Part shown: positions 31,996-63,298 of the stretch, piece after piece
How the letters are laid out: each line of letters begins with the position of its first letter
Numbering within the stretch: position 1 is the stretch's first letter
Assembly (NCBI GenBank): GCA_963575745.1
Contig: CAUYUJ010003892.1
Span: 442,121-506,120 of the forward strand
Source of the DNA: Prorocentrum cordatum
Lineage: Eukaryota; Sar; Dinophyceae; Prorocentrales; Prorocentraceae
Direction of reading: 5' to 3'
DNA: 64,000 bases
The notes under the pieces: model-generated
Seen by the model: only the letters and a program-made list of their open reading frames with translations
Database searches by the model: none
Told to the model about the DNA's origin: nothing
Made by a program: the position numbers and the translations under genes

Positions 31996-33014
31996 TTCGT
32001 CCCATCGGGGAGTCCAGCGTCACCGAATTTGTTCCAGTATTGTGCTTGTCGTTCCAGGACGTGCGTACGCGCGCAGAATGTTTCTCTGCAGCGTCCTCGT
32101 CGCATCAGGATGTCCAGCGTCGCAGAATGCATCCTTGTAGCGCCTCTTCTTCCAGGGCGACGTGGTCCTGAGTCGCCGCGGACGACTCGCCGCGGACGGT
32201 TCCATTCGATTCCACGGGCGATCGTGCGCATGTAGTTTGCCACGCGCCGGCGCGCGCGGAGAGGGCCTGGGCGCCCTGTCGCCTGCGGGCGACCGCGCGG
32301 GTTAGTCCCCGCAAAAGCCAAAGAGGGCATTTCCACACGCCGGGGAAAGCCTAAAAGGGCTTTCGTCTGCCTGATCCCCCCCCCCTCTTTCCTTCTCTTC
32401 TTTCATCGAAGTCAGAACCCCCGCCCCCTATGACGTCCTCCGCTGGCCTGGGTGGTCTACTCAGGTCGCGGAGGGGGATAGGGGTGGGGTCGTTGCCACG
32501 GCTGGTGCCTCGATTTCACGACGGGGAGGGGGGGGTGCACCGTTCCCTCGGATGGGCACATCCCCCCCTCCAAGGGCCTCCGAGCCCTCCCTCTCCGTCC
32601 TTTTCTTCTCCCTTATCCTTCCCTCCCTCGCGGTTTTCGAAGCCTTTGGCGTCTCCGCCCACCACAGCGGGGATCTCGACCCCCCAATGGGATTCGTGGA
32701 GCGGGGGGGGCCTTGAGAAACGAAACATTTCTTGGGGCGGGGCCACACAGCACACACATCACATCCATCGAGTCACGCACACATACAGCAACACGCTTTC
32801 TCGACTCCACAGGGGGGGTGCTTCGTGGAGGCATCACTTGTAACTTTGCAATTCTGTAATCATTGCCGTTCTGGTTCAAAGAACTTGGATTGCAGGAGTT
32901 CGCGGCAAAAGCGAGCCTTGTCCGCGTCCGCTCAACCAGTCTCACCGTGCCGTGCACGGTGTTTCTCAGCCTGTGTCACTGTGCGCTCCACGGTGATCCT
33001 CCGGGTGAGCTACC
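31996..33014. other. Leader region upstream of the RPA-like gene
   Basis: No gene was recognised. It contains a pyrimidine-rich stretch at 32370-32660 and ends with a GGTGTTTCTCAGCCTG word at 32958, about 55 bp before the start codon. It is conserved in E3 (56046-57066). It could hold the promoter and 5' UTR, but no specific signal is assigned. Confidence 0.5.
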
Positions 33015-34907
33015 ATGGCTGCTGCTGCAGAACAGCCGACGTCTCCACTGGGTTTTCTCACGAAGAGCAGCGCCAAAACCCAAGACTTCCTTGTCCGAGT
33101 ATACAAGCCCAGGGAGATCAAGTACTCGTACAAGAGCAGGAACAATGGCCAGCTAGTCCATGCAAACCGATTCACATGCATTCTGCTTGGCACAGACTCA
33201 GAGCACTATTGTGAGGCCATCCTCAAAGGAACTCCAGCAGAAGTCCAAGCTGCTCTGAAAAAGTTCCCTCCGATGACGGCGTGGAAACTCTCCAGCGTCG
33301 GCCTGGACAGTCGGCAGCAGGACGCTTTTGTGCATACGTCTGTTCGTGTCGTGGTCGACCTCAAGCGCACAACCTGCAGTCCAGTGCTCAAAAGCTCTCC
33401 GGAGGAGACCTCCTTGGCATCGGCGCCGGCTCCAGCGACTACAGTGGCAGACATGATGAACATCAAATCGCAGCGTTGCTTCGATGTCATGGCTGTGGTT
33501 CATTCTGTTTCAGACGCCCGCACTCCCGCTGGCCACCCTCCAGCGGCAAGTGCACATCTGGTCGACGGCACACAGACGAGTAACTCCAAGACAGCGGAGG
33601 CTGTGATTGCAGTCTGGGGATCCACCAACATAGAGCTTTGTCGCTCTCACAAAGGACAACCGCTGCTGTTTCTCAACGTGGCGGGCAAATTCGACGGCAA
33701 ACTGGAGCTGAACTTGTCGCAAGATCGCGTGGTGGATTCCGCATGCTCTTGTCCCAGAATGACTCAACTACACGACTTAGCAGCCACTCAAGACTTCGCG
33801 ATGGACCGGGAGCAGCTGACCACCGCTCATGCGGGTACTTGGGATCCAGACCAGGCTTCGCAGATTCTCACCGGAGAAGCACTCCTTTCCTGCTGTGCCT
33901 TTTTGGCTATGGCGTCGGATGATCCGAATGCAAACTTGCCATTCTTGTTGCAGGTCAATGGGATGAGGCTTGAGGAACCGGAACCAGCCGACTCTGTGGT
34001 GGAGAACACAGGCGAGCGCGTGTTCTTTACGACTACTGCTCGTGATTTCAGTGGCTCGTGCAAAGTCGGCGTATCACAAGCGGCAGCCTTCGCCTTGACT
34101 GGCATTGACAGCATGCAAGAATTCGAAAAAGTTCACGACGAGAAAGCTATCTCCTTCCCTCCACTGAGCAATTGTCGCATCATACGACGCGTGCGCAATG
34201 TGGCTGCGAATGCACAGGATGACACACCTCAACGGACTTTCGTCAACACGACTGTGGTGGCCGTTTCACCGCTTCAGATATCGCACGCCCCGAATACGTC
34301 TTACAATGTCGTCTTGGAGATCCTGGAGCAGTGCCGCGAGAGCCAGGATGCAATGCTCGCGGCACAGCTCTCTGAGATACGGTCTTGTCCCTTCTACGGC
34401 ATGCGCGTGCAGTACTCACCAGCGGGTGGAGGGGGTGACGCTTCTCAGCTTACCCGGAACTGCCACTTGGCAGTCGTTCTCGTTCGTACCACGCAGAAGT
34501 CTCGGTGCGAATCCACTGCGGCTGGCTTCGTCGTGTCCACACCAGGTGTCACGGACGCTTCTGACGGTGAGTCTTCCCACTCAGTGACGATTCACGGACA
34601 CTGCTCAGTTGACAACTTGCTCTCGTTCAAAATGGATCCGCCCAACCGAGCGAAGCACAGAGTCTGCTTGTTTCTCATTACTGGCTGTTCAAAAGACGGC
34701 ATGACGGTGCACAGCGTGACCCACATTGACGACTCCGTCGTGTCTGAGGCGCAGTACTTCATTAAAAAATTGAGAACACTGGGGATGCGCACAGAGCTTC
34801 AGCAATCAGGCGAGCATAAGCGGATGAATGAGTGGAGCACGACGCCGGAATCCGCCAAGAAGTGCCGCATTCTTGAAAGCCACCCCTCAGGAGAAAGCTT
34901 GAGGTGA
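33015..34907 (+). CDS. Putative RPA-like single-strand DNA-binding protein (E1 copy, intact)
   Basis: A 630-aa uninterrupted frame. The ATG lies in the good context GCTACCATGG, with no competing upstream start in frame. Residues about 155-250 (from RCFDVMAVVHSVSD through IAVWGSTNIELC to LFLNVAGKFDGKL) follow the pattern of an RPA70 DNA-binding OB fold: strand 1 'FDVxxVV', a ligand 'D-G', 'VxxWG', then 'FLNV..KF.G'. RPA-like genes are known cargo of Helitrons, where they are thought to protect single-stranded intermediates. A second OB-like segment at about 385-470 is possible. Near residue 475 a variant of the shared word reads GDASQL. It lies immediately upstream of the Rep/helicase gene, on the same strand. 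The E3 copy (57067-58796) is broken. The assignment is by pattern, not by search; a novel element-specific DNA-binding protein is the alternative. Confidence 0.55.
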   Translation: MAAAAEQPTSPLGFLTKSSAKTQDFLVRVYKPREIKYSYKSRNNGQLVHANRFTCILLGTDSEHYCEAILKGTPAEVQAALKKFPPMTAWKLSSVGLDSRQQDAFVHTSVRVVVDLKRTTCSPVLKSSPEETSLASAPAPATTVADMMNIKSQRCFDVMAVVHSVSDARTPAGHPPAASAHLVDGTQTSNSKTAEAVIAVWGSTNIELCRSHKGQPLLFLNVAGKFDGKLELNLSQDRVVDSACSCPRMTQLHDLAATQDFAMDREQLTTAHAGTWDPDQASQILTGEALLSCCAFLAMASDDPNANLPFLLQVNGMRLEEPEPADSVVENTGERVFFTTTARDFSGSCKVGVSQAAAFALTGIDSMQEFEKVHDEKAISFPPLSNCRIIRRVRNVAANAQDDTPQRTFVNTTVVAVSPLQISHAPNTSYNVVLEILEQCRESQDAMLAAQLSEIRSCPFYGMRVQYSPAGGGGDASQLTRNCHLAVVLVRTTQKSRCESTAAGFVVSTPGVTDASDGESSHSVTIHGHCSVDNLLSFKMDPPNRAKHRVCLFLITGCSKDGMTVHSVTHIDDSVVSEAQYFIKKLRTLGMRTELQQSGEHKRMNEWSTTPESAKKCRILESHPSGESLR

Positions 34908-35625
34908 GCTTTCTCCTGTCTTGTCAGCGATGCTTCTCAGCTTGCTGGACATGGCAAGCATCTTTGTCTTGCGCCTTGCGGGATGCCAACTAGGTTTGCC
35001 TCAAACATATCGTTTGGTAGTTTCGTTGTTTATGCGGTGCTTCTCAGCCTGCACTATTTACTGTTGTGGCGTCTGGTGCACGAATAGTGTTTGCGGCCTG
35101 CATTCCTCCTCAGCCTGCCCTGGCTCCCTTGAGAGTGCCTGCGCAGAGTTTCGGTCTGTGCTCACGTTGCCCAGCGGATTCATTCACCTTCGCCCGCGGT
35201 GCTTCTCAGCCTGCACTTCCTTTGCTACAAGCGCCTGTTCTGCAGTCGTTCACAGTGTCTCGTTTACAGAGAATTTCGGTGTTTGAAAAACAAAACATTT
35301 CTGCATGTGTTTCTGTGGAATCTAAATCAGGTCATGGCCGTGCTTCATTGCAAGACAACCCCCATGTTCGTAGCAGTGTCGAAATCAGACGTCGTTCAGT
35401 TATAAAAGCGTTGATAGCAGTGTCTCGTTTTCAAACGCCTCATTGTATATCAACTCTGGCTGTGCCTCATTTCAAGACACCTTCCATGTGCGTGGCAGTG
35501 TCGGTATCAGAGGTTCCTCCACAACGAATTTCCCTCATCACCATCATCATGATCAAGTTCTCCCTAGCCATGTTGCCTCGAGCTATCCTTACAAAGGAAC
35601 TTTCCAGCACCCACTGTACACAGTT
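34908..35625. other. Intergenic region between RPA-like and Rep/helicase genes
   Basis: It holds copies of the GGTGCTTCTCAGCCTGC word at about 34926, 35037, 35103 and 35198, plus one 45-bp GTTGATA module. The hairpin-like GAGAAAGCTTGAGGTGAGCTTTCTC at the end of the RPA-like gene (34890-34914) could act in transcript processing. Open frames crossing this region are Ser/Leu-rich and not supported. Confidence 0.6.
35410..35454. repeat. 45-bp GTTGATA/TATCAAC module, copy 1
   Basis: Starts GTTGATAGCAGTGTCTCGTTT and ends TATCAAC, so it has 7-bp inverted ends. The size is identical in the other copies (51409, 51737, 52125, 59386). Confidence 0.85.
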
Positions 35626-38018
35626 ATGCCGCGGCATGCTGGTAGCTCTCGGTCTGGGCGCCATGCTCCTGACGTTTCTGCACCCAACAGCGGTGCTCCT
35701 CAGCCTGCTGCAGTGAGCAGTGCCCCTCCTCAGCGCGCTGTGTTGAACGGTACTGTCCAAAGGATTGTTGACCTGGTGAAGCAGTTCGGTCGTATACCGA
35801 AGCACAAGAAAGGAACGTCCGAGGAAGTACGAGCTGAAAACAAGTTGGCCAAACGTTTCTCCGACCACCGCGACAGCATTCCTAATGACGTTATGTTAGA
35901 GTTGCAAGCCCTCGAATGCGCCACGCCTTCAGAGTCAACCGCTGTCAGCGCTGCCCTTCAGCGTTCTGATGCTCCTGACGTTTCTGCACCCAACAGCGGT
36001 GCTCCTCAGCCTGCTGCAGTGAGCAGTGCCCCTCCTCAGCGTGCTGTGTTGAACGGTACTGTCCAAAGGATTGTTGACCTGGTGAAGCAGTTCGGACGTA
36101 TACCGATGCGAAAGAAAGGAACGTCCGAGGAAGTACGAGCTGAAAACAAGTTGGCCAAACGTTTCTCCGACCACCGCCACAGCATTCCTAATGACGTTAT
36201 GTTAGAGTTGCAAGCCCTCGAATGCGCCACGCCTTCAGAGTCAGCCGCTGTCAGCGCTGCCCTTCAGCGTTCTGCATTAAGCGGATCTCTGCAAACGCTC
36301 GTCGAGGACGTGGAGCAGTTCGGTCGTATACCGATCAGAAATCATGAACGTCTGAGGAAACACGAGCCGAAAACAACTTGGCCAAACGTTTCCTTGAACA
36401 CCGCGAGAGCATTCCTGGTGACGTGATGTTGGAATTGCAAGACCTCGAGGAGTCACGCGCCGTCAGCGCTGCTGCTCAGCGTGCTGCAACCGAGGAGTTC
36501 AAGCGGAAGCAGAAGATCGATGAGCTCCTGCAGCAGGTGCGCGAATTCGGCAGCTGGCCGAAGGAGAGCGCTCAACGCCCGCTTGCAGAGCGGCAGTTGG
36601 CTTGGCACATCCGAAAAACACGGAAGGCCATACATTTCTCACCGGAGCAGGAGGCCGAGCTTCAAACTCTGCAGCGGGCGGATACGAAGCCCGTCGGGCT
36701 CATGCAGCAGACGAAGATCGAGGAGGTCATGCAACAGGTGCGAGACTTCGGCCGCTTTCCGAAGGAGTCCGCCGGGCGTAGTGTTGCAGAGCGGCAACTA
36801 GGCTGGCTAGTTCGGAAAGCACGGAAGGCCAAGCAGTTCTCCCCGGAGCAGGAGGCCGAGCTCCAGGCCCTCCAGCAGTTGGAGACCGATGACACAACAG
36901 CGACTCGCTTCGCGGAGGCGGAGGCCCTCCCAAACCCCATGGAAGGGTTCGCTGACGAGGCGCAGAACAGGATCGACCAGGACCTGATGATGCTGGAGAG
37001 TGGCATCCGGACCAAGGCAATCCTGCGGCGCCTTGCCGTCTACAAGGAGCTGGTGTCCAGCCGCGGTGCTACTCAGCCCGCGCAGCTCAAAGAATTCGTA
37101 CAGCGGTACGCGGAGCGGGTGCGCAGGGCGTCGGCCGCTTCCGCGGGGAAGACCTGCTTCGTTCCCGGCGGTGAGGTGGAGGGGGGCCAGCTGCGCGTCT
37201 TCTCCGCCCGCCCCGTCATGACGGGGCCGCTCGTGTGCCAGCTCTGCGAGTGCGACTTTCTTACAGAGGAGGACTTTGCGCGGCGCAAGCAGCAGGGCCA
37301 CGCGGGCGAGGCGGAATGCCGCAAACGGGTGCTGTTCCTGATGACAGAGGCCGGCTGCAGGCCGATAGCCGCCCAGGAGAAGAGGATCATGGTGCAGAAT
37401 TTTGTTCACTTCCAGCAGTTCTGTCACCCGGGCAGCAAGGGCAACCGCTTCTCGGGCGGCGAGGCGGTGCCCCGATGCGAGGCAGCCTGCGTAGTCTGTG
37501 CGCAGAAAGACTACCTGGAGCACCGCCACAAACTGAGCCTGTTTGGGGCAGTGCCGGAGGAGCGTGTCTTTGAGCACTGCGCCGACTCAGCAAGCGATCG
37601 TGATGACCTATCCGATGGCGAGGCAGATGCTCCACCCAAGCGTGCTCTGGTGAAGCACCGCGGGGTGTACTACTTGCAGTCCCCGGAGTTCGTGCAGAAG
37701 CTCCTGGACGTGGACAGGTACAGGCAGCGGTGGCCACTGATCCCGTGCGAACAGCTGCATGCGTCCAGCGTTCAGCATCCGGAGCACCCAGAGTGGCGGT
37801 GGCTGCTACACTCCCGCCGAGTCCCTGTGGTTGCACCACAGAAGCAACGGCGGGAACCTGCGGTGCTTCTCAGCCTGCTGCCGACAGGTCCGGCGGAGCT
37901 TCTCAGCCTGCGGACGAGAGGCCTCCGTGCGCAGGGGTGGGAGATGCCAACGCGTTGGTGTGGGTATGTTGGGATTGCCTCAATGACCTGTGCGCCAAGA
38001 AACCGAAGATGCCGTTAA
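35626..38018 (+). pseudogene. N-terminal part of the E1 Rep/helicase: helicase-associated-like repeats and zinc-binding region
   Basis: The start is the ATG at 35626, kept in E3 (59603) and followed by the PRHAGSS stretch. Five repeats of about 55 aa follow (about 35755, 36055, 36290, 36505 and 36715). Each has the form 'hxxLVxQFGRxPxxxxGTSEExxAENxLxxxhxxxRxxhxxxxxxELQALE', resembling helicase-associated (HA) domains. Linkers carry S-G-A-P-Q-P-A. Further on are cysteine/histidine clusters: CQLCECDF...H...C at 37235-37320 and CEAACVVCAQKDYLEHR at about 37480-37530. In Helitron proteins these precede the DUF6570-like domain. A one-base loss near 36345 and another near 37845 break the frame, giving open stretches 35443-36426 and 36378-38018. 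Both breaks are absent from E3, so they are recent mutations or assembly errors. Cellular location is presumably nuclear. Confidence 0.7.
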
Positions 38019-39084
38019 ACGCCCTGGTCAACGACAACTGGATCGGCCGGGAGCTCATGCTCGTCCGCACCGCTTCGAAAGCTACTAAGATGCTGGCGTC
38101 CCTTGGCCGATGCTGTTGGAAGCAAGTCCGCCTCGGCAAGGGCGCCCCGGATGTCCAGCAGAAAGGCATCTCGGGCAACGCTATCCTCTTCGCCCAGCCC
38201 ACGGCGCAAATCCCGACCATGGAGCTGCCCCCGGAGCAGGGCGCGCTTGTGGACTCTCTGAACATCGTTTTCTCGGGCGCCGCGCACAACCTCCACAAGG
38301 CGTACTGGGCAACAGTCAAGCGCGGCGAGTATATGCAGATCGTGAGGGAGCGCAAGCTGCAGTGCGCAACCTTTTCCGAGGTATCCGTCCGGGAGGATGT
38401 TGCCCCGACACGGTTGCCGGAGGACGGCGTGCCAGACCACACCGAAGCCTGTCTGCAACCAGTGGACGGTGTGGACAAAGCCCCGGTACGTCTGTTGGGG
38501 CCAGCATCCAGGGCGCCGGAAGTGGGCAGAGACGACGAGGCGGGAGACGAGTCTGACGAGGAGACAGAGACAGACAAAGACGGAGAAGCAGCAGAACAGC
38601 CTGACATGGCCTACCTGCATAAATGTGGCAGAGGTCACAGTTGCAGTGGATCCAGTGCATGACATCGCTCCAGTCCGAATGATGCAAGCGCTGCTAGGCA
38701 CGCTGGTGGCGCTGCAGGAGCAGGCAGCACGCATCGCCAAGAACGAGGTGACACCGACAGTGGCAGACAGCAGCGGTGCTCTTCAGCCTGTTGCAGACGA
38801 GGGCGGCAGGCATACGATGCGCAGCGTGGTTCTCGATGTACAGAGTGCTGCTCGTTCGTTCGACGAGCGAGCGCAGGTGGTGCTGGAGAAAGCGCAGGCA
38901 GGAGCAGACGCGTGCAGAGCTGTGGGCCCGCACTCCTTATCGGTGCCTACGCAGAAACCCTTGAGTTCTTTCGACAGCAGGTCTTGGCCGGCGTGCTACA
39001 CAGAGTTCTGGTTCGGGGACGGCGCGCCGAACCTCGAGCGGGAGCGGCCCATGCTGTTCGAACAGGTCTTCCCCAGGAATACTA
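37846..39084 (+). pseudogene. E1 Rep/helicase continuation: DUF6570-like and pre-Rep region
   Basis: Continues the preceding entry in another frame. After GASQPA-type linkers (37861, 37891) comes VWVCWDCLNDLCAKKPKMPL, then ALVNDNWIGRELMLV and GKGAPDVQQKGISGN. This fits the Helitron-associated DUF6570 pattern: CxxC, 'P..AL.N..W.G', then 'G..QKG..G'. An acidic linker follows at 38530-38600 (EVGRDDEAGDESDEETETD). A two-base loss near 38622 shifts the frame again; E3 retains the bases. At 38940-39070 PHSLSVPTQKPLSSFDSR and FWFGDGAPNLERERPMLF match the segment just before the Rep domain of Helitron proteins ('LFPxGxGGPxxxR'). Coding is then interrupted by a 33-bp minisatellite. Confidence 0.72.
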
Positions 39085-39565
39085 CTTATGCGACCAGTGT
39101 TGATAGTGGAGTCGATCCATTGATAGCAGTGTGTCGTTTGGACCTACATGTGTTGATAGCAGTGTCTCGTGGAGGCCTACATCCATTGATCGCAGTGTCT
39201 TGTTTGTACCTACGTGCGTTGATAGCAGTGTCTCGTTTGGACCTACATGTGTTGATAACAGTGTCTCGATTGGATCTACACCCACTGATACCACTGTCTC
39301 GTTTGGACTTACATGTGTCGATAGCAGTGTCTCGTTTGGACCTACACATGTTGATAGCAGTGTCTCGTTTGGACCTATATCTATTGATAGCATTGCTCCG
39401 TTTGGACCTACATGTGTTGATAGCAGTGCCCCGTTTGGACGTACACGCGTTGATCGCAGTGTCTCGTTTGGACCTACATGTGTTGATAGCAGTGTCTCGT
39501 TTGGACATACATCCGTTGAACGCAAAGTTGCGTTTGGACCTACATGTCTTCATAGCAGTGTCTCT
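39085..39565. repeat. 33-bp minisatellite inside the E1 Rep gene
   Basis: About 14 units of TTTGGACCTACATGTGTTGATAGCAGTGTCTCG with substitutions. As 33 is a multiple of 3, every frame stays in register: one reads FGPTCVDSSVS, another LDLHVLIAVSR, and the reverse strand also stays open. The unit contains the 22-nt head of the 45-bp GTTGATA module. The matching array in E3 (63299-63770) has the same unit order, with only a few substitutions. Confidence 0.93.
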
Positions 39566-39576
39566 TTTCTTCGTCC

Positions 39577-39820
39577 TTCGAGGTCGCACGGCGCCTCATC
39601 AACCTGGAGGAGCTCGAGTACTCTCTCGCGACCGACGAGGAGCCCTACGAGGCAGCCTGCCAGAGCCGCTTCAGCTCGCCAGAAAGTGTTGCCCGTCTCG
39701 CGACCTTGATCCCCGGCGCGCTCTTGAAGAAAGGACACTCCGGGCGCGATTGGCAGGAAAGGCTTCGCACTGACCTCCAGAAGCCTGTCGAGCGTCGCGG
39801 AGATGTCATGAAGGCCTGAT
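39577..39820 (+). pseudogene. E1 Rep gene fragment after the minisatellite
   Basis: In the frame starting at 39577 the translation FEVARRLINLEELEYSLATD then EEPYEAACQSRFSSPE resumes Helitron-type pre-Rep sequence. The E3 version continues to IAVFGDVIRRLRLLKGTRAA and IGRKGFGTDLQ, a conserved stretch, at 63895-63990. In E1 this stretch (39670-39770) is scrambled by several small indels and ends at TGA 39818-39820. The arm may therefore be non-functional in E1. Confidence 0.65.
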
Positions 39821-39824
39821 CATG

Positions 39825-39968
39825 TGCGAATCTACCTCACATAAAACATACCCACCATCCCCCAACCCAAAATAAAAATAATTAAAATTAATAAATAAAT
39901 CAAAAAAAAAAGAAAGAATAAAAAAATAAATTAAAAAAAAATTAAATTAAAAAAAAAAAAAAAAAAAA
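39825..39968. other. A-rich block interrupting the Rep gene
   Basis: About 140 bp of A and AAT-rich sequence, ending in a run of about 20 A, within otherwise GC-rich coding DNA. It lacks C and G almost entirely from 39876 on. It may be a poly(A) remnant of a retroposed insertion or an AT-rich intron. The window ends before the equivalent point in E3. Confidence 0.6.
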
Positions 39969-41567
39969 GGTGAACGCGCCGACTGCATCGGCTCCGCCAT
40001 TTCACGCCCGGGCATGCCTGCCAAGGTCAAGTCTGCCCTCAGGACGTTGCTACTTAGCACTTCCGATGTCCCTGGCACGGAGGGGCGGAAAACCGCACTC
40101 CGCTTCGACGGGCACGGCAACAACCTCAAGTTCGGCGCGGCCAGCTTCTTCGTCACACCGAACTTCGCAGACACGTACAGCCCGTTGGTCCTCCAACTCC
40201 ACGAAGGGCCCGGAAAGCGGAGCCACTTAGACATTCGCGGGGGCGCGGTTGGCGCGGTGGCCAGAGCCGGCGGCGCTTCTCAGCCTGCGGGCCCTGACCT
40301 GCGGAGTCCAGCTCCGACCATGCCTTCTCTGGAGCGGATGCACCAGATAGTGGCAGCAGACCCGCGGGCGCAGGCCAAGTTCTTCCTGTTGATGACGGAG
40401 CTTCACTACCGCTACATCATCGGCTTAGAGCGCCTGTTTGTGGGCCGCACAACGCTAGCCCGACAGGCGGTGACAACGGAGGACGACGTGGCAGCGACTC
40501 TGCAGCCGTGCGTGGCCCCAGGCACCACTGATGTGCAAGCGCCTTTCGAAGCACAGGGTCGGGGCTTCACGCGCGGCCACGGCAAAGGCCACAGCGTCAT
40601 CGGGCCTACGATGGCGTGGCTGCGGTCGGCAGTGGTCGGAGGCCTGCGCACCGCCGCTCGGGAGCTGCGAACTGCCCTTCTTTCCACCGCGGAGACCGTG
40701 CAGTACGAAGCTGCCAACGAGCCCGCACGGCAGCAGGGGCTTCCTGACGTCGCGCCAGAGCCTTTCACAGCCAGGCAGCAACGACAGAGCCGCATGGACG
40801 GAGGGGAAGAGGAGGACGGCACCCTGCGCGACGAGGTGCCTCTCGGCCCGCCAGTGGAGCAGCCGCACCTGGTGGAGGAGCGAGCGCGGGCAGCCGCAGA
40901 GAACCGGAAGCCTGCAATCGGCGCTGCAGCGTACCGGGGCCTCCCGCTCACAGGAGCCTTTCAGTCTACGTTTCCAAGCTACCGCCAACGAACTAGCTTC
41001 GGGCAGCTAGGTGGCGCCCCTCAGCCTGCCATGGCAGCCAGCCATGCTAGCCTCTTCCAGACGAACGAGGATGGAGCGATTCAGGAAGTCCTCACGCCCG
41101 ATGGCTCGCCGGCTTCGGTCGAGGAGATTACCGCAGATGCGGAGGCTTGGGCGGTAGCGTTTAGCCGTGACTTCTTTTGCAACATCTGCTCCAACCGCGA
41201 GCACGACAGCACCGAGACGTGCGTCAAGTACGTCAAGAAGAAGCTCGAGGCCAAAGAGAGTCTGCGCTCGAACAGAACCCCGTCGTGCCGCTTCTGGTTC
41301 TTTCGCATCCAGCAGCTATGTCTAGCAGGCCGCACCAAGCGAGTGCGTCTGCGCGGCAAGCCTTTGGTCCGGACTCCCTTCATCGACTTCTCTGATGACC
41401 GCAACCAGCGGTGCCGCTGCCAGGTCAAACGCGACCAGCCGTTCAGGAGCTCCAGCAACGACGTCTCTCAAGTGACCAGCCGGTGCAACGTGGATTTCCA
41501 GTTCTTGATGTGCGCGCCTGACGAGTCTGCCGAGGCAGCAAAAGTGCTTCAGCCTGGTGGTGCTCCT
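39969..41567 (+). pseudogene. E1 Rep (HUH endonuclease-like) domain of the Helitron-type protein
   Basis: The frame is open from 39969 (GERADCIGSAISRPG, then the Met at 40014), so 40014 is probably not the true start but an internal Met after the A-rich block. Helitron Rep landmarks, numbered from 40014: residues 43-57 FFVTPNFADTYSPL (motif 1-like), 178-194 FEAQGRGFTRGHGKGHS (HUH region, family 'EFQxRGxxHxH'), and about 397-410 HDSTETCVKYVKKKL (catalytic-tyrosine region, family 'YxxKY'). The HUH stretch has H-G-K-G-H, but an Arg where the first His is expected, so nicking activity is uncertain. Linkers at 40273 and 41012 contain the G-A-x-Q-P-A word. The frame is interrupted after GGAP at 41567 by a 1.95-kb insertion and resumes at 43518. 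Confidence 0.75.
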
Positions 41568-43512: not shown

Positions 43513-43517
43513 CTCCT

Positions 43518-50812: not shown

Positions 50813-50835
50813 GTTTTGCAAGTCTCCCTGCCCGC

Positions 50836-52169: not shown

Positions 52170-52495
52170 TCGCTGATGCCGGGTTTCCTATCATCACCAT
52201 CATCATCATCCTTAACCTCCTCTACGAAAAAAGGTTTGGCCAGGAGGTTTTTACCCGCGGTCGTTCCCACCATGGAGAAGAAAGACTTGTTACAAATGAA
52301 AACGCGACGGGATCCGTAGCCACATGTTTGCTCGAGTTTCACCTGGCCGTCCAGCCGCGGCGGTGCTCCTCAGCCTGCCTTGTCACAATGCCAGCACGCG
52401 GCTAGGCATCGCCCCCGCCACCCCCGGCCCCGTGCGATGGCCCGTGGGAGATTCTGCCGGATCCGCCCGCACCGACTCCTCAGCCAGGTGTCGAC

Positions 52496-53392: not shown

Positions 53393-53399
53393 CTATCTG

Positions 53400-54225: not shown

Positions 54226-54234
54226 CTGGTCCCG

Positions 54235-54530
54235 CTTCGTGCTGAGGCGGAGGCTGAAGGCAGGCAGAGGCTGAGGCAGGCAGAGGCCTGAGGCCGAGGC
54301 CGACGGCAGACTAGGCATAGGCCAGAAGCAGGCTGGGCAGAGGCATAGCAGGCTGAGGCTGAGGCTGAGGCTGATGCAGGCTGAGGCTGAGGCAGGCTGA
54401 GGCTGAGGCCGAGGCCAAAGGCAGACTGATGCTGAGGCTAAAGCAGGCTGAGGCTGAGGCTGAGGCAGGCTGAGGCTGAGGCAGGCGGAGGCTGAGGCTG
54501 AGGCAGGCTGAGGCTGAGGCTGTGACTGCG
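54235..54530 (-). repeat. AGGCTG array at the E2 3' end
   Basis: The reverse complement of the E0 CAGCCT array, about 300 bp, followed by GACTGCGACTGCCGTTGCCA as in the E0 left interior (GTGGCAACGGCAGTCGCAGTC). Confidence 0.92.
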
Positions 54531-54844
54531 ACTGCCGTTGCCACTGCGACTGTCCTCGCGAATGCGACAACGACTGCGAGAACAGCAGAAATCTACAACT
54601 GGATTCTCATCCGAATCTTAAGGGGAATGCTTCCAGATATGCCCAACACATGGCTGTTAGTTAACCCTCTATGCCGGGATAAATTTTCTTTTGGGTGTTG
54701 TATAACCCTAACAGCGAAGGACTGATAGGTTTCTAGTGGTCTCAAAAAGCTCACAAACACTAAACCACATGGGGGGTCCGGTGCAGGTGTTGGGGAGTTG
54801 CCGGGCGGCAGGGTGCCGGGCTCGTTTTTCACCAACAGTCACAC

Positions 54845-55262
54845 ACTTCGTGCTCTTCGACTTCCCAGAACTCCATTCCCAGGCCTCATTCTGAATACCC
54901 GGATGCAACAGTCACACACTTCGTGTTCTTCGAGATCCCAGAACGCCATTCCCGGGCCACATTTAGAATAACCAGATGCAAACAGTCACACACTTCGTGT
55001 CTCTTCGACATCCCATAACGCCATACCTCCCCGGTCCACATTCTGGAGGGCCGGATGCAACAGTCACACACTTCGTGCTCTTCGAGTTCCCAGAACTCCA
55101 TTCCCGGGCCACATTTTGAATGCCCGGAGCCAACTGTAGGCCACTCCGTGCTCTTCGAGTTCCCAGAACTCCATTCCCGGGCCACATTTTGAATGCCCGT
55201 AGCCAACTGCTGGCAGTTTCGTGCTCTTCGACTTCCCAGAATTCCCATTCCTGGGCCACATT
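54845..55262 (+). repeat. 73-bp tandem array of E3, about six units
   Basis: Same unit and orientation as E1. Some units are shortened or altered (CATACCTCCCCGGTCC at 55022). Confidence 0.92.
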
Positions 55263-55442
55263 TTCAGCAGGGGCAAGAGCACGACGAGGAGGAGGACGAG
55301 CAAGACCAGGAGGACGAGGACGAGCAGGAGCAGGACGAGGAGCAGGAGGAGCAGGAGAAGAAGGACGAGCAGGAGGAGGAGGAGGACGAGCAGGAGGATG
55401 AGGACGACCAGGAGGAGGAGGACGACCAGGAAGAGGAGGAGG

Positions 55443-55542
55443 NNNNNNNNNNNNNNNNNNNNNNNNNNNNNNNNNNNNNNNNNNNNNNNNNNNNNNNNNN
55501 NNNNNNNNNNNNNNNNNNNNNNNNNNNNNNNNNNNNNNNNNN
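55443..55542. other. Assembly gap (100 N)
   Basis: Exactly 100 unknown bases inside the GAG-rich tract. The E1 tract is about 500 bp longer than what is seen here, so the gap size is a placeholder. Confidence 0.99.
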
Positions 55543-55683
55543 ATGAGGAGGAGGAGGAGGAGCAGGAGAAAGAAGACGAGCAGGAGGAGGACGAGGACGA
55601 GCAGGAGGAGGAGGAGGAGGACGAACAGGAGGGGAGGGCGGCCGGCTGCCCCGAGTCGTGCGCACAGGGGCTCTGAGGAAGGC

Positions 55684-56046
55684 TCCCTAAGCTCGAGACG
55701 CTTTGAATACTTTGTAGTTTCCTCGTAGCTTCCTTTCCATGCCTTTGTAGCTTCCACGCACTCCTGCGTCGCCAAGTTTCTTCTTTTCTTCTCGCAGCGT
55801 CCTTGTCGTGTCGCGGGGTGCGTTTGCGTCACTTCGGTGTTGCTGCGCCTTGAGACGTGTCTCTGCGCTCCCTAAGCTCGAGACGCTTTGAATACTTTGT
55901 AGTTTCCTCGTAGCTTCCTTTCCATGCCTTTGTAGCTTCCACGCACTCCTGCGTCGCCGAGTTTCTTCTTGCAGCGTCCTTGTCGCGTCGCGGGGTGCGT
56001 TTGCGTCACTTCGGTGTTGCTGCGCCTTGAGACGTGTCTCTGCTGC
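55684..56046. repeat. 190-bp tandem pair in the E3 leader
   Basis: Counterpart of 31617-31995, with copies at 55684-55868 and 55872-56043. Confidence 0.88.
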
Positions 56047-57066
56047 TTCTTCGTCCCATCGGGGAGTCCAGCGTCACCGAATTTGTTCCAGCATTGTGCT
56101 TGTCGTTCCAGGTCGTGCGTACGCGCGCAGAATGTTTCTCTGCAGCGTCCTCGTCGCATCAGGATGTCCAGCGTCGCAGAATGCATCCTTGTAGCGCCTC
56201 TTCTTCCAGGGCGACGTGGTCCTGAGCCGCCGCGGACGACTCGCCGCGGACGGTTCCATTCGATTCCACGGGCGATCGTGCGCATGTAGTTTGCCACGCG
56301 CCTGCGCGCGCGGAGAGGGCCTGGGCGCCCTGTCGCCTGCGGGCGACCGCGCGGGTTAGTCCCCGCAAAAGCCAAAAAAGGCATTTCCACACGCCGGGTA
56401 AAGCCTAAAAGGGCTTTCGTCTGCCTGATCCCCCCCCCCTCTTTCCTTCTCTTCTTTCATCGAAGTCAGAACCCCCGCCCCCGATGACGTCCTCCGCTGG
56501 CCTGGGTGGTCTACTCAGGTCGCGGAGGGGGATAGGGGGGGGGTCGTTGCCACGGCTGGTGCCTCGATTCACGACGGGGAGGGGGGGGTGCACCGTTCCC
56601 TCGGATGGGCACATCCCCCCCTCCAAGGGCCTCCGAGCCCTCCCTCTCCGTCCTTTTCTTCTCCCATATCCTTCCCTCCCTCGCGGTTTTCGAAGCCTTT
56701 GGCGTCTCCGCCCACCAGAGCGGGGATCTCGACCCCCCAATGGGATTCGTGGAGCGGGGGGGGCCTTGAGAAGCGAAACATTTCTTGGGGCGGGGCCACA
56801 CAGCACACACATCACATCCATCGAGTCACGCACACATACAGCAACACGCTTTCTCGACTCCACAGGGGGGTGCTTCGTGGAGGCATCACTTGTAACTTTG
56901 CAATTCTGTAATCATTGCCGTTCTGGTTCAAAGAACTTTGATTGCAGGAGTTCGAGGCAAAAGCGAGCCTTGTCCGCATCCGCTCAACCAGTCTCACCGT
57001 GCCGTGCACGGTGCTTCTCAGCCTGTGTCACTGTGCGCTCCACGGTGATCCTCCGGGTGAGCTACC

Positions 57067-58796
57067 ATGGCTGCTGCTGCAGAACAGCCGACGTCTCCAC
57101 TGGGTTTTCTCACGAAGAGCAGCGCCAAACCCCAAGACTTCCTTGTCCGAGTATACAAGCCCAGGGAGATCAAGTACTCGTACAAGAGCAGGAACAATGG
57201 CCAGCTAGTCCATGCAAACCGATTCACATGCATTCTGCTTGGCACAGACTCAGAGCACTATTGTGAGGCCATCCTCAAAGGAACTCCAGCAGAAGTCCAA
57301 GCTGCTCAGAAAAAGTTCCCTCCGATGACGGCGTGGAAACTCTCCAGCGTCGGCCTGGACAGTCGGCAGCAGGACGCTTTTGTGCATACGTCTGTTCGTG
57401 TCGTGGTCGACCTCAAGCGCGCAACCTGCAGTCCAGTGCTCAAAAGCTCTCCGGAGTAGACCTCCTTGGCATCGGCGCCGGCTCCAGCGACTACAGTGGC
57501 AGACATGATGAACATCAAATCGCAGCGTTGCTTCGATGTCATGGCTGTGGTTCATTCTGTTTCAGAAACCCGCACTCCCGCTGGCCACCCTCCAGTGGCA
57601 AGCGTGCATCTGGTCGACGGCACACAGACGAGTAACTCCAAGACAGCGGAGGCTGTGATTGCAGTCTGGGGATCCACCAACATAGAGCTTTGTCGCTCTC
57701 ACAAAGGACAACCGCTGCTGTTTCTCAACGTGGCGGGCAAATTCGACGGCAAACTGGAGCAGAACTTGTCGCAAGATCGCGTGGTGGATTCCGCATGCTC
57801 TTGTCCCAGAATGACTCAACTACACGACTTAGCAGCCACTCAAGACTTCGCGATGGACCGGGAGCAGCTGACCACCGCTCATGCGGGTACTTGGGATCCA
57901 GACCATGCTTCGCAGATTCTCACCGGAGAAGCACTCCTCTCCTGCTGTGCCTTTTTGGCTATGGCGTCGGATGATCCGAATGCAAACTTGCCACTCTTGT
58001 TGCAGGTCAATGGGATGAGGCTTGAGGAACCGGAGCCAGCCGACTCTGTGGTGGAGATCACAGGCGAGCGCGTCTTCTTTACGACTACTGCTCGTGATTT
58101 CAGTGGCTCGTGCAAAGTCGGCGTATCCCAAGCGGCAGCCTTCGCCTTGACCGGCATTGATAGCATGCAAGAATTCAAAAATTCACGACGAGAAAGCTAT
58201 CTCCTTCCCTCCACTGAGCAATTGTCGCATCATACGACGCGTGCGCAATGTGGCTGCGAATGCACAGGATGGACTTTCGTCAACACGACTGTGGTGGCCG
58301 TTTCACCGCTTCAGATATCGCACGCCCCGAATACGTCTTACAATGTCGTCTTGGAGATCCTGAAGCAGTGCCGCGAGAGCCAGGATGCAATGCTCGCGGC
58401 ACAGCTCTCTGAGATACGGTCTTGCCCCTTCTACGGCATGCGCGTGCAGTACTCACCAGCGGGTGGAGGGGGTGAAAGCTTGAGTCGTTCTCGTTCGTAC
58501 CACGCAGAAGTCTCGGTGCGTCCACTGCGGCTGGCTTCGTCGTGTCCACACCAGGTGTCACGGACGCTTCTGACGGTGAGTCTTCCCACTCAGTGACGAT
58601 TCACGACACTGCTCAGTTGACAACTTGCTCTCGTTCAAAATGGATCCGCCCAACCGAGCGAAGCACAGAGTCTGCTTGTTGCTCATTACTGGCTGTTCAA
58701 ACGGCATGACGGTGCACAGCGTGACCCACATTGACGACTCCGTCGTGTCTGAGGCGCAGTACTTCATTAAAAAATTGAGAACACTGTTTCAGCCAT
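57067..58796 (+). pseudogene. RPA-like gene of E3, broken
   Basis: Counterpart of 33015-34907. A single base change makes TAG at 57457-57459. Further damage: a frame shift near 58166, a 13-bp loss near 58270, a loss of about 27 bp near 58475 that removes the GDASQL word variant, small losses at 58517, 58606 and 58700, and a larger loss near 58786. These are spread-out real-looking mutations, not one sequencing slip, so this copy has decayed. The OB-fold-like region (57520-57780) survives with few substitutions. Confidence 0.85.
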
Positions 58797-58879
58797 AAGC
58801 GGATGAATGAGTGGAGCACGACGCCGGAATCCGCCAAGAAGTGCCGCATTCTTGAAAGCCACCCCTCAGGAGAAAGCTT

Positions 58880-59600
58880 GTGAGCTTTCTCCTGTCTTGT
58901 CAGCGATGCTTCTCAGCTTGCTGGACATGGCAAGCATCTTTGTCTTGCGCCTTGCGGGATGCCAACTAGGTTTGCCTCAAACATATCGTTTGGTAGTTTC
59001 GTTGTTTATGCGGTGCTTCTCAGCCTGCACTATTTACTGTTGTGGCGTCTGGTTCACGAATAGTGTTTGCGGCCTGCATTCCTCCTCAGCCTGCCCTGGC
59101 TCCCTTGAGAGTGCCTGCACAGAGTTTCGGTCTGTGCTCACGTTGCCCAACGGATTCATTCACCTTCGCCCGCGGTGCTTCTCAGCCTGCACTTCCTTTG
59201 CTACAAGCGCCTGTTCTGCAGTCGTTCACAGTGTCTCGTTTACAGAGAATTTCGGTGTTTGAAAAACAAAACAATTCTGCATGTGTTTCTGTGGAATCTA
59301 AATCAGGTCATGGCCGTGCTTCATTGCAAGACAACCCCCATGTTCGTAGCAGTGTCGAAATCAGACGTCGTTGAGTTATAAAAGCGTTGATAGCAGTGTC
59401 TCGTTTTCAAACGCCTCATTGTATATCAACTCTGGCTGTGCCTCATTTCAAGACACCTTCCATGTGCGTAGCAGTGCCGGTATCAGAGGTTCCTCCACAA
59501 CGAATTTCCCTCATCACCATCATCATGATCAAGTTCTCCCTAGCCATGTTGCCTCGAGCTATCCTTACAAAAGGAACTTTCCAGCGCCCACTGTACACAG
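58880..59600. other. Intergenic region of E3
   Basis: Counterpart of 34908-35625. Word copies occur at about 58905, 59012, 59080 and 59173, and a 45-bp module at 59386-59430. Confidence 0.6.
59386..59430. repeat. 45-bp GTTGATA/TATCAAC module, copy 5
   Basis: The E3 counterpart of 35410-35454, apparently identical. Confidence 0.85.
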
Positions 59601-59602
59601 TA

Positions 59603-62600
59603 ATGCCGCGGCATGCTGGTAGCTCTCGGTCTGGGCGCCATGCTCCTGACGTTTCTGCACCCAACAGCGGTGCTCCTCAGCCTGCTGCAGTGAGCAGTGC
59701 CCCTCCTCAGCGTGCTGTGTTGAACGGTACTGTCCAAAGGATTGTTGACCTGGTGAAGGAGTTCGGTCGTATACCGAGGCGAAAGAAAGGAACGTCCGAG
59801 GAAGTGCGAGCTGAAAACAAGTTGGCCAAACGTTTCTCCGACCACCGCGACAGCATTCCTAATGACGTTATGTTAGAGTTGCAAGCCCTCGAATGCGCCA
59901 CGCCTTCAGAGCCAGCCGCTGTCAGCGCTGCCCTTCAGCGTTCTGATGCTCCTGACGTTTCTGCACCCAACAGCGGTGCTCCTCAGCCTGCTGCAGTGAG
60001 CAGTGCCCCTCCTCAGCGTGCTGTGTTGAACGGAACTAGTGTACCAAAGGATTGTTGACCTGGTGAAGCAGTTCGGTCGTATACCGATGCGAAAGAAAGG
60101 AACGTCCGAGGAAGTACGAGCTGAAAACAAGTTGGCTTTCTCCGACCACCGCGACAGCATTCCTAATGACGTTATGTTAGAGTTGCAAGCCCTCGAATGC
60201 GCCACGCCTTCAGAGTCAGCCGCTGTCAGCGCTGCCCTTCAGCGTTCTGCACGACAGCGGAGCCTGCTGCCAGTAGCGTGCCGGTACTGTCCAAAGGATT
60301 GTTGACCTGGTTTCGGTCGTATACCGATTCCGAGGAAGTACGAGCTGAAAACAAGTTGGCCAAACGTTTCTCCGACCACCGCGACAGCATTCCTAATGAC
60401 GTTATGTTAGAGTTGCAAGCCCTCGAATGCGCCGCGCCTTCAGAGTCAGCCGCTGTCAGCGCTGCCCTTCAGCGTTCTGCATTAATCGGATCTCTGCAAA
60501 CGCTCGTCGAGGACGTGAAGCAGTTCGGTCGTATACCGATCAGAAATCATGGAACGTCTGAGGAAGCACGAGCCGAAAACAACTTGGCCAAACGTTTCCT
60601 TGAACACCGCGAGAGCATTCCTGGTGACGTGATGTTGGAATTGCAAGACCTCGAGGAGTCACGCGCCGTCAGCGCTGCTGCTCAGCGTGCTGCAACCGAG
60701 GAGTTCAAGCGGAAGCAGAAGACCGATGAGCTCCTGCAGCAGGTGCGCGAATTCGGCAGCTGGCCGAAGGAGAGCGCTCAACGCCCGCTTGCAGAGCGGC
60801 AGTTGGCTTGGCACATCCGAAAAACACGGAAGGCCAAACATTTCTCACCGGAGCAGGAGGCCGAGCTTCAAACTCTGCAGCGGGCGGATACGAAGCCCGT
60901 CGGGCTCATGCAGCAGACGAAGATCGAGGAGGTCATGCAACAGGTGCGAGACCTCGGCCGCTTTCCGAAGGAGTCCGCCGGGCGTAGTGTTGCAGAGCGG
61001 CAACTAGGCTGGCTAGTTCGGAAAGCACGGAAGGCCAAGCAGTTCTCCCCGGAGCAGGAGGCCGAGCTCCAGGCCCTCCAGCAGTTGGAGACCGATGACA
61101 CAACAGCGACTCGCATCGCGGAGGCGGAGGCCCTCCCAAACCCCATGGAAGGGTTCGCTGACGAGGCGCAGAACAGGATCGACCAGGACCTGCTGATGCT
61201 GGAGAGTGGCATCCGGACCAAGGCAATCCTGCGGCGCCTTGCCGTCTACAAGGAGCTGGTGTCCAGCCGCGGTGCTACTCAGCCCGCGCAGCTCAAAGAA
61301 TTCGTACAGCGGTACGCGGAGCGGGTGCGCAGGGCGTCGGCCGCTTCCGCGGGGAAGACCTGCTACGTTCCCGGCGGTGAGGTGGAGGGGGGCCAGCTGC
61401 GCGTCTTCTCCGCCCGCCCCGTCATGACGGGGCCGCTCGTGTGCCAGCTCTGCGAGTGCGACTTTCTTACAGAGGAGGACTTTGCGCGGCGCAAGCAGCA
61501 GGGCCACGCGGGCGAGGCGGAATGCCGCAAACGGGTGCTGTTCCTGATGACAGAGGCCGGCTGCAGGCCGATAGCCGCCCAGGAGAAGAGGATCATGGTG
61601 CAGAATTTTGCTCACTTCCAGCAGTTCTGTCACCCGGGCAGCAAGGGCAACCGCTTCTCGGGCGGCGAGGCGGTGCCCCGATGCGAGGCAGCCTGCGTAG
61701 TCTGTGCGCAGAAAGACTACCTGGAGCACCGCCACAAACTGAGCCTGTTTGGGGCAGTGCCGGAGGAGCGTGTCTTTGAGCACTGCGCCGACTCAGCAAG
61801 CGATCGTGATGACCTATCCGATGGCGAGGCAGATGCTCCACCCAAGCGTGCTCTGGTGAAGCACCGCGGGGTGTACTACTTGCAGTCCCCGGAGCTCGTG
61901 CAGAAGCTCCTGGACGTGGACAGGTACAGGCAGCGGTGGCCACTGATCCCGTGTGAACAGCTGCACGCGTCCAGCGTTCAGCATCCGGAGCACCCAGAGT
62001 GGCGGTGGCTGCTGCACTCCCGCCGAGTCCCTGTGGTTGCACCACCAGAAGCAACGGCGGGAACCTGCGGTGCTTCTCAGCCTGCTGCCGACAAGTCCGG
62101 CGGAGCTTCTCAGCCTGCGGACGAGAGGCCTCCGTGCGCAGGGGTGGGAGATGCCAACGCGTTGGTGTGGGTTTGTTGGGATTGCCTCAATGACCTGTGC
62201 GCCAAGAAACCGAAGATGCCGTTAAACGCCCTGGTCAACGACAACTGGATCGGCCGGGAGCTCATGCTCGTCCGCAACGCTTCGAAAGCAACTAAGATGC
62301 TGGCGTCCCTTGGCCGATGCTGTTGGAAGCAAGTCCGCCTCGGCAAGGGCGCCCCGGATGTCCAGCAGAAAGGCATCTCGGGCAACACTATCCTCTTCGC
62401 CCAGCCCACGGCGCAAATCCCGACCATGGAGCTGCCCCCGGAGCAGGGCGCGCTGTGGACTCTCTGAACATCGTTTTCTCGGGCGCCGCGCACAAACTCC
62501 ACAAGGCGTACTGGGCAACAGTCAAGCGCGGCGAGTATATGCAGATCGTGAGGGAGCGCAAGCTGCAGTGCGCAACCTTTTCCGAGGTATCCGTCCGGGA

Positions 62601-63298
62601 GGATGTTGCCCCGACACGGTTGCCGGAGGACGGCGTGCCAGACCACATCGAAGCCTGTCTGCAACCAGTGGACGGTGTGGACAAAGCCCCGGTACGTCTG
62701 TTGGGGCCAGCATCCAGGGCGCCGGAAGTGGGCAGAGACGACGAGGCGGGAGACGAGTCTGACGAGGAGACAGAGACAGACAAAGACGGAGAAGCAGCAG
62801 AACAGCCTGACATGGCCTACCTGCATGAAAATGTGGCAGAGGTCACAGTTGCAGTGGATCCAGTGCATGACATCGCTCCAGTCCGAATGATGCAAGCGCT
62901 GCAAGGCACGCTGGTGGCGCTGCAGGAGCAGGCAGCACGCGTCGCCAAGAACGAGGTGACACCGACAGTGGCAGACAGCAGCGGTGCTCTTCAGCCTGTT
63001 GCCGACGAGGGCGGCAGGCATACGATGCGCAGCATGGTTCTCGATGTACAGAGTGCTGCTCGTTCGTTCGACGAGCGAGCGCAGGTGGTGCTGGAGAAAG
63101 CGCAAGCAGGAGCAGACGCGTGCAGAGCTGTGGGCCCGCACTCCTTATCGGTGCCTACGCAGAAACCCTTGAGTTCTTTCGACAGCAGGTCTTGGCCGGC
63201 GTGCTACACAGAGTTCTGGTTCGGGGACGGCGCGCCGAACCTCGAGCGGGAGCGGCCCATGCTGTTCGAACAGGTCTTCCCCAGGAATACTACTTATG
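59603..63298 (+). pseudogene. E3 Rep/helicase, N-terminal half
   Basis: Counterpart of 35626-39084. The start ATG 59603 is conserved. Six helicase-associated-like repeats are visible (one more than in E1), but the second and third are shortened by clean losses (60033-60150, 60250-60330) that shift the frame. From 60197 the frame is open for 756 codons through the zinc-binding (61443-61530, 61680-61740) and DUF6570-like (62170-62400) regions, where E1 is broken. It then loses one base near 62453 and continues in another frame from 62461, through the acidic linker and FWFGDGAPNLERERPM (63220-63270), to the minisatellite. The breaks in E1 and E3 lie at different sites, so an ancestor with an intact gene is implied. 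Confidence 0.78.

Follow-up and report, generated by a model that had tools for sequence, protein, structure and literature searches.

Strand-specific stem-loops with covarying arms recur through the genes and untranslated regions of a Helitron2/Helentron-like transposon of Prorocentrum cordatum

Introduction

To our knowledge, structured signals in transposon RNA or DNA are few and mostly terminal. The integron attC site is a strand-specific hairpin with an unpaired base and variable, matched arms, and it lies just past the stop codon of each gene. The 3' stem-loop of histone mRNA is short, lies on the sense strand soon past the stop codon and has U at loop position 3. Here we describe a hairpin family in a stretch of 64,000 nucleotides from the dinoflagellate Prorocentrum cordatum (GenBank assembly GCA_963575745.1, contig CAUYUJ010003892.1, positions 442,121 to 506,120 of the forward strand; hereafter the window). 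The host of these hairpins is a Helitron2/Helentron-like rolling-circle transposon. A sequence-only reading of the window had noticed a word, GGTGCTTCTCAGCCTGC, which is repeated on one strand within and between the transposon proteins. We found that this word forms the centre of an imperfect stem-loop that has a single bulged base, and that the variable arms outside the word stay complementary to each other.

Like attC, the hairpin is strand-specific, has an unpaired base, occurs after stop codons and has variable matched arms. Unlike attC, its core sequence is conserved, and recombination breakpoints do not gather at it (59 of 625 alignment ends fall at hairpins, 64.0 being expected). It shares with the histone stem-loop consensus the sense-strand position shortly after a stop codon and U at loop position 3, and differs from it in its bulge, its variable arms and its many copies, which also lie inside genes. 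An Rfam search gave no match for the hairpin, and none of the three matches found at E up to 10 in 32900-54200 was histone.

Helitron2 and Helentron elements have asymmetric subterminal inverted repeats, according to the parts of the published descriptions used here (PMC4067079, PMC5148889). Judged by the same parts, our element resembles them in its PIF1 domain, perhaps in a candidate Helitron_like_N domain, and in its asymmetric subterminal inverted repeats, its T-rich target and its internal tandem repeats, whereas the hairpins that they describe are terminal and dozens of copies of one hairpin run through genes and untranslated regions here (PMC4067079, PMC5148889). The endonuclease is not fused to the Rep/helicase protein, unlike in Helentron proper, and no hairpin lies within tens of nucleotides of the 3' end, unlike the Helitron terminal hairpin. 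Rickettsia palindromic elements are likewise palindromes that occur in frame within proteins and also elsewhere; as far as the portion of PMC10969869 used here describes them, they are about 150 bp long, bacterial and found in unrelated host genes, whereas the hairpin is about 25 nt long, belongs to one transposon lineage and has covarying arms. Inverted repeats of up to 284 bp are kept in coding sequence in the mitochondria of Nematomorpha, and the abstract of that paper mentions neither a shared core or loop nor non-coding copies (PMC6649704). A literature survey by titles and the openings of abstracts, with subscription papers and preprints mostly outside its reach, found no counterpart for the hairpin family.

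Copies and orientation of the word

The window contains 54 copies of the word at up to 3 mismatches between 32958 and 62999, all on the + strand and none on the other strand, in agreement with the roughly 50 strand-specific copies noticed earlier at 32.9-63 kb. At up to 5 mismatches, the other strand has one copy with 4 mismatches and sixteen with 5. In 100 shuffles, the mean was 0.37 copies and the maximum 3 at up to 3 mismatches, which rules out a chance origin. Eleven of the 54 copies (57010 onward) are not independent, because the element is present there a second time: 31618-39792 aligns to 55676-64000 at 95-98%.

Genome-wide (4,128,499,153 bases in 21,875 contigs), the word occurs about 18,000 times at up to 2 mismatches, 9221 times forward and 9053 times reverse; the reversed word, used as a control, occurs about 1,000 times (484 forward, 530 reverse). 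The strand specificity seen in the window does not hold for the genome as a whole. We fetched 18 stretches, about 178 kb in total, which cover 16 of the lowest-numbered contigs with exact copies and therefore sample one element family, not the genome. In each of these 18 loci the word keeps to a single strand and hence turns with the element, and all 18 also carry end or body sequences of the host element. We think that the word is equally frequent on both genome strands because the elements lie both ways round.

A covariance model built from the 59 sites described below gave 51 sense and 3 antisense matches in the window at E up to 1, the antisense ones at E 0.41 or more. Across the 18 loci it gave 199 matches at E up to 0.01, on one strand per locus. 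The conserved unit is about 25-27 nt, flanks included; it is longer than the 17-nt word that had been taken as the unit, and the hairpin had been missed. Four viral contigs had one match each to a pattern of 18 fixed bases, about the number due to chance by a rough estimate, and a search of viral contigs for helicase relatives found none. Searching prokaryote genomes matched 131 stretches; the 80 kept are distant helicases, 22-33% alike, and were not used further.

Structure and covariation of the hairpin

The hairpin consists, in order, of an outer arm, GC-GG, the bulged T, GCT, the loop TCTC, AGC, C-T-GC and the other outer arm. Copies at up to 3 mismatches from the 18 stretches and from the window after 30 kb gave 294 sites, and 59 remained after those with alike flanks were dropped. 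Hairpins duplicated with their arms and without their flanks would be counted again, so that the independent compensations number fewer than 59. Pair -3/+17 is Watson-Crick at 40 of the 59 sites against 15.7 expected (C-G 15, A-T 9, G-C 9, T-A 7). Pairs -4/+18 (37 against 23 expected), -2/+16 (51 against 42.1) and -5/+19 (21 against 14.0) also pair in excess, and no excess was found beyond -5/+19. Pair 1/13 is formed at 54 sites against 47.7 expected, with C-G, A-T and T-A replacements included, and pair 0/14 is G-U at 46 sites, A-U at 7 and G-C at 5. In an all-pairs scan of variable columns, -3/+17 came first (excess 24.3) and -4/+18 second (14.1), the next being 10.2. Stricter thinning to 45 sites left -3/+17 paired in 30 against 12.0 expected.

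Over the whole structure, 81.8% of cells are paired, compared with 72.2 +- 1.1 in shuffles and 31.6-45.6% when the partners are slid. There are 82 double changes against 40.8 in shuffles, and the covariation score is 0.325 against 0.164; none of 500 shuffles was as high for paired cells, double changes or score. Eight pairs have a double change against 5.2 (6 of 500 shuffles as high). The 59 sites have 46 different arm combinations. Among mismatches in the outer pairs, depletion is milder for G.T (29, 32.8 expected) than for A.C (20, 29.2 expected), which means that the sense strand folds. Judged from these sequences, the outer arms differ among sites yet match and are closed by conserved G(G)-C(T) pairs. 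Past the bulged T, an inner stem GCT/AGC with a four-base loop N-Y-T-C is likely, as predicted by single-sequence folds that contain the inner three pairs at 42-44 of the 59 sites. We are almost certain that the hairpin itself is real, and its structure is well supported.

Coding and non-coding copies

The hairpin is found in protein linkers, in untranslated regions and shortly past stop codons. In the reference frame the word reads G-A-[S/P/A/T/L/I]-Q-P-A, as had been reported for the transposon proteins; the other two frames would read CFSAC or VLLSL. By open-frame length, 30 of the 59 sites are in this frame, 6 in another frame and 23 in non-coding or short-frame sequence. Two of the 30 follow a gene's stop and were reclassed, which gives 28 coding and 25 non-coding or short-frame sites and changes the share of long-frame sites in the GAxQPA frame from 30 of 36 to 28 of 34. 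In an intact copy of the long Rep/helicase gene elsewhere in the genome (L111), 13 of 15 words at up to 4 mismatches are in frame, two of them with 3 mismatches. The two out-of-frame words have 4 and 3 mismatches, and the latter is the counterpart of the copy at 44870, which had rightly been described as read in another frame. An exact word at 5419 in a gene of L018 is read as VLLSL. The observation that non-coding clusters keep the word was also confirmed.

Pair -3/+17 is formed at 19 of the 28 coding sites (8.6 expected) and at 19 of the 25 non-coding or short-frame sites (9.1 expected). At coding sites, +17 is the third base of an alanine codon and -3 is the first base of the codon six codons upstream. 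Selection on the protein therefore cannot explain the match of the arms. Since this third base covaries with a base six codons upstream and the non-coding copies pair alike, we reject the earlier suggestion that the word is a protease or linker module alone.

The peptide recurs in relatives from public protein collections. Relatives of the helicase, 43-90% alike over the aligned part, have 53 motifs in 38 of 102 proteins (2.55 expected from shuffles; reversed motif 6). Those of the endonuclease-like protein (27-96% alike) have 58 motifs in 18 of 19 (0.4 expected; reversed motif 7), and those of ORF1 (55-96% alike) have 6 motifs in 6 of 25 (0.3 expected; reversed motif 1). In aligned relatives (10, 9 and 14 protein sequences for helicase, endonuclease-like protein and ORF1), the peptide lies at the same linkers with varying presence and absence.

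Position after stop codons

The distance from stop codon to word, at up to 4 mismatches, is 21 nt for ORF1, 23 nt for the endonuclease-like gene, 19 nt for the second gene of its element (in L027), 17 nt for a leucine-rich repeat (LRR) gene in L020, 23 nt for a gene in L018 and 30 nt for the Rep/helicase gene (in L029). Thus, five of six distinct genes have the word 17-23 nt past the stop and the sixth has it at 30 nt. Given 22 words in 6827 non-coding bases (one per 310 nt), a word this close to the stop (30 nt at most) in six of six genes has a chance of about 6e-7, for genes picked after the data were seen. The LRR gene keeps this rule with a changed core of the word. No matching spacing rule was seen at start codons. 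The last word of copy 1 of the element ends 100 nt before the 3' end.

Two observations concern individual loci. Past the LRR stop in L020 there are two words with changed cores, with pair 1/13 being T-A (paired) in one and C-A (unpaired) in the other. Directly past a stop codon at 6199-6249 of L018, three words with shared arms stand in tandem with a period of 17 nt.

Gain and loss of sites

Inside genes, copies were gained by tandem duplication of 27- and 30-nt units. Non-coding arrays have a 25-nt period in the window (47481, 47506) and a 17-nt period in L018. L013 and L028 lack the site at 37065; the sequences differ there by a net 12 nt through a replacement, and in the comparisons made neither clean insertion nor target duplication was seen. 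A single deletion junction, in L024, falls in a hairpin. In one case, a 1.9-kb insertion (41563-43509) hit a hairpin copy whose word is uninterrupted in L025 and L029.

Possible roles of the hairpin

We give about an even chance to a reading in which the word forms the core of a stem-loop that acts in cis, in the mRNA of a dinoflagellate rolling-circle transposon. A protein of the element or of the host that reads the loop and the bulge would bind many copies along the transcripts, and the binding would mark or package them, or act on how they are exported, on how stable they are or on their 3' end. The frame kept in the proteins would be a by-product. We read the frame preference as tolerance: in-gene copies may survive mainly in the GAxQPA frame because GASQPA, a flexible hydrophilic peptide, would be harmless in linkers. 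Three features suggest action in RNA: the hairpin's spacing from stop codons, its G-U pair and its occurrence in untranslated regions. Of the meanings listed earlier, a protein-binding site or a transcript processing signal fits best, since the constraint acts on the nucleic acid, is specific to one strand and is shared by coding and non-coding copies.

Several points weigh against this reading. The strand transferred in rolling-circle transposition may share the polarity of the mRNA, so that strand cannot separate RNA from single-stranded DNA, and translating ribosomes would open the hairpins that lie within genes. The inner pairs are nearly invariant, pairs 0/14, 3/12 and 4/11 show no covariation excess among the 59 sites, and RNAalifold found the outer six pairs and left the inner three open; the inner stem and the four-base loop therefore rest on folding and near-invariance. 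The true right flank lowers the mean folding energy only slightly, to -11.8 kcal/mol from -10.2 kcal/mol when flanks are swapped. The six genes behind the post-stop spacing were judged to have a genuine stop and were picked after the data were seen. Other open frames, at distances of 14 nt to many kb, were set aside by judgement as ended by a frameshift or an internal stop or as no gene. The Rep/helicase word at 30 nt is degenerate (4 mismatches in L029), and the first word of intact L111 at up to 4 mismatches lies 63 nt past the stop. Comparison of the same site among copies (333 sites, sorted into 84 groups of up to 8 variants each) gave 37 changes that break a pair against 28 that keep one (25 single, 3 double, the three doubles being one event seen in three copies). 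A further 18 restore a pair, some of them in a group that mixes tandem units, and 13 are on pairs unpaired before and after. One clear double change between copies is at -2/+16 of the 41013 site, A-T in L013 and G-C in the window. The excess of pair-breaking changes fits the decay of dead copies and proves no present function.

The main rival, which we consider unlikely, is that the hairpins work in the single-stranded DNA of rolling-circle transposition, either as binding sites of the Rep or ORF1 protein on the transferred strand or in priming of the second strand. It accords with the element sequences present at all 18 fetched loci and with the word always being in element orientation there; also, some single-strand transposases recognise short hairpins by a bulged base. 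This rival does not predict that the word lies 17-30 nt past stop codons, the G-U at pair 0/14 in 46 of 59 sites suits RNA better, and the 3' terminus lacks a hairpin, unlike known terminal hairpins. An improbable alternative is a mobile or self-spreading palindrome, comparable to Rickettsia palindromic elements and tolerated in frame in coding sequence and also in non-coding sequence. The dispersed copies have unrelated flanks, the same linker is occupied or empty among relatives, and tandem duplication gives local gain, all of which would be expected of such a palindrome. A copied insert, however, brings its own arms, whereas here the arms differ and match; the best case for insertion is the replacement of net +12 nt at 37065, and all 18 fetched loci belong to one element family. 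Because no clean insertion was found and the arms vary in concert, the tiny frame-preserving mobile insert proposed in the sequence-only reading is unsupported in that form.

The hairpins could also be functionless products of mutation, with template switching at quasi-palindromes perfecting the arms and tandem duplication spreading the core, which we find quite improbable. Tandem units are present, the arms run longer at some sites (49064, 49570), and covariation is strongest in the outer pairs next to the core, in line with this mechanism. It explains neither the post-stop spacing nor why loop and bulge are conserved at synonymous codon positions, and at the same sites pairs are broken more often than restored (37 against 18). 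Selection on the peptide only, as a linker or protease site, draws on the recurrence of GASQPA-like peptides at the same linkers of relatives; it is already contradicted by the non-coding copies, the other-frame copies (44870 in the window, 5419 in L018) and the covariation at synonymous bases, and we regard it as very improbable.

A bolder view, which is possible and rather doubtful, is that of a lineage-specific punctuation code. Its signs would be hairpins on one strand, fixed in loop and bulge and free to vary in their matched arms. They would stand after stops and between the protein modules of autonomous and gene-carrying elements (at least one with a captured LRR gene). A dedicated factor would read them in RNA or in a single-stranded transposition intermediate, and gene modules would be handled like cassettes.

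One hairpin family occurs up to about 20 times per element, in genes and untranslated regions, and thousands of times per genome. If the reading in terms of a bound stem-loop is true, it would give a direct handle on how the dinoflagellate helentron's transcripts or transposition intermediates are handled, nucleic-acid structure would shape protein linkers, and the hairpins would form a natural tagged array for finding the binding protein. Recurrent in-frame linker peptides should be treated with caution, as they can be footprints of nucleic-acid structure.

The host element and its genes

The elements and genes in the window are as follows.

30010..47708, +: helentron-like copy 1 (Rep/PIF1 type), 5' end TTTACCTAACAGCGAAGACTGATAGG, 3' end CGCTGTTAGGTTGCTTTGCCGGGATAA; ends common to many loci, flanks diverging outside
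30010..30034, +: 5' terminus with ACCTAACAGCG, which is inverted near the 3' end
33015..34907, +: ORF1, 630 aa; aligned relatives 56-84% alike; without a match in Pfam
35630..47427, +: long Rep/helicase gene (DUF6570, Helitron_like_N, PIF1); start set by eye; frameshifts and an insertion disrupt the gene here
47682..47708, +: 3' terminus with subterminal inverted repeat CGCTGTTAGGT, which ends 16 nt before the 3' end
47709..54702, +: copy 2, with the endonuclease-like gene and a second gene; head to tail; 3' end diverged
47830..48257, +: tandem-repeat stretch in the 5' part of copy 2, unit about 73 nt by eye
48617..50812, +: endonuclease-like gene, assigned by eye (window ORF without Pfam match); frameshifted in this copy
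52388..53392, +: second gene of copy 2; its L027 homologue stops at the site matching 53458
54703..64000, +: copy 3, same type as copy 1, continuing past the window edge

The 5' end (T)TACCTAACAGCGAAGACTGATAGG follows diverse, mostly T-rich flanks, and the 3' end has 22 copies (up to 5 mismatches) with diverse flanks behind; most of the 5' and 3' ends listed have T-rich junctions. The inverted repeat, 11 bases long, has a subterminal, asymmetric arrangement. The intact Rep/helicase gene of L111 encodes 3044 aa and stops after the helicase, and the endonuclease-like gene lies on a separate element. In the long gene, DUF6570 matched above the curated Pfam cut-off (E 5.8e-10). Helitron_like_N is a weak match below the cut-off (E 0.0011), as is PIF1 in L013 (E 2.1e-4) and in relative P0003 (E 1.5e-5); several homologues carry precomputed PF05970. 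PDB sequence searches with ORF1 and the endonuclease-like ORF gave no match at E up to 1. Another element, L020, carries the LRR gene (LRR_6, E 1.4e-7).

No spacer separates the head-to-tail elements of 30010-64000, an arrangement that rolling-circle products might show. At 4164-6290 of L020, the captured LRR gene is fused to what appears to be the element's own N-terminal repeat domain. A C-terminal stub of the helicase (VQGKTADPGxIVHW) lies in the 5' region of elements at 465-905 of L013 and 4145-4570 of L024.

Hairpin sites in the window

The sites and their basis are given below.

32949..32983, +: hairpin upstream of ORF1 (covariance model, E 6.8e-5)
33656..33690, +: weak hairpin within ORF1 and out of the usual frame, possibly chance (E 0.0086)
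34428..34462, +: hairpin in an ORF1 linker (DASQL; E 0.0055); related peptide in most aligned relatives
34920..34954, +: hairpin past the ORF1 stop, word starting 21 nt after it (covariance model)
35027..35061, +: hairpin, non-coding (covariance model)
35189..35223, +: hairpin, non-coding (covariance model)
35683..35717, +: hairpin, coding, in frame, in a 306-nt repeat unit (covariance model)
35989..36023, +: hairpin, coding, in frame, in the second 306-nt unit (covariance model)
36459..36493, +: hairpin, coding, pair 1/13 C-G replacing G-C (covariance model)
37056..37090, +: hairpin, coding, the 37065 site, missing in L013 and L028 (87% alike) (covariance model)
37853..37887, +: hairpin, coding (covariance model)
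37895..37911, +: hairpin word, coding (word match)
38766..38800, +: hairpin, coding (covariance model)
40263..40297, +: hairpin, coding (covariance model)
41004..41038, +: hairpin, coding, the 41013 site (E 0.18)
41563..43509, no strand: 1.9-kb insertion with inverted ends TGGGAGGCGTGTGTATATACACC, interrupting the loop of one hairpin and flanked on each side by CTCCT (by eye)
44238..44272, +: hairpin, coding (covariance model)
44861..44895, +: hairpin (44870 copy) in another frame, LVLLSLA; length unchanged against homologues by eye
45540..45574, +: hairpin, helicase linker 1 (covariance model; relatives aligned)
46447..46481, +: hairpin, helicase linker 2 (covariance model; relatives aligned)
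46969..47003, +: hairpin, helicase linker 3 (covariance model; relatives aligned)
47448..47608, +: five hairpin words past the helicase gene (47448, 47481, 47506, 47565, 47592)
48710..48765, +: two hairpins, coding, 27-nt tandem unit (covariance model)
49064..49098, +: hairpin, coding, arms TTCCGC/GCGGAA (covariance model)
49570..49604, +: hairpin, coding, long matched arms (covariance model)
49901..49935, +: hairpin, coding (covariance model)
50225..50259, +: hairpin, coding (covariance model)
50827..50861, +: hairpin, word starting 23 nt past the stop at 50812, a distance listed for the homologous L023
50905..51084, +: cluster of words 50914, 50960, 50987, 51059 (word and covariance model)
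51599..51633, +: hairpin, non-coding (covariance model)
52353..52387, +: hairpin directly 5' of an ATG (covariance model)
52880..52986, +: coding linker made up of four units of 30 nt, of which the first two have 4 mismatches
53469..53558, +: two hairpins past the second gene; in the homologous L027 the distance from the stop is 19 nt
53795..53919, +: cluster of words 53795, 53822, 53894 (word and covariance model)
57001..63008, +: words of copy 3 (57010, 58905, 59012, 59174, 59669, 59975, 60674, 61271, 62069, 62102, 62983)

Other repeats in the window

A second strand-specific word, GTTGATAGCAGTGTCTCGTTT, has 36 copies on the + strand and 0 on the - strand at up to 4 mismatches, partly in 33-nt tandem arrays, at 39119-39568, 51409-52145, 35410 and 63327-63776. 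Its 29 sites show no covarying pair across the word, the best excess (9.2) being within the left flank. Large tandem-repeat arrays lie at 13810-15440 and 23930-25316, and the latter contains CAGCCT repeats, which resemble the core of the hairpin word by composition only.

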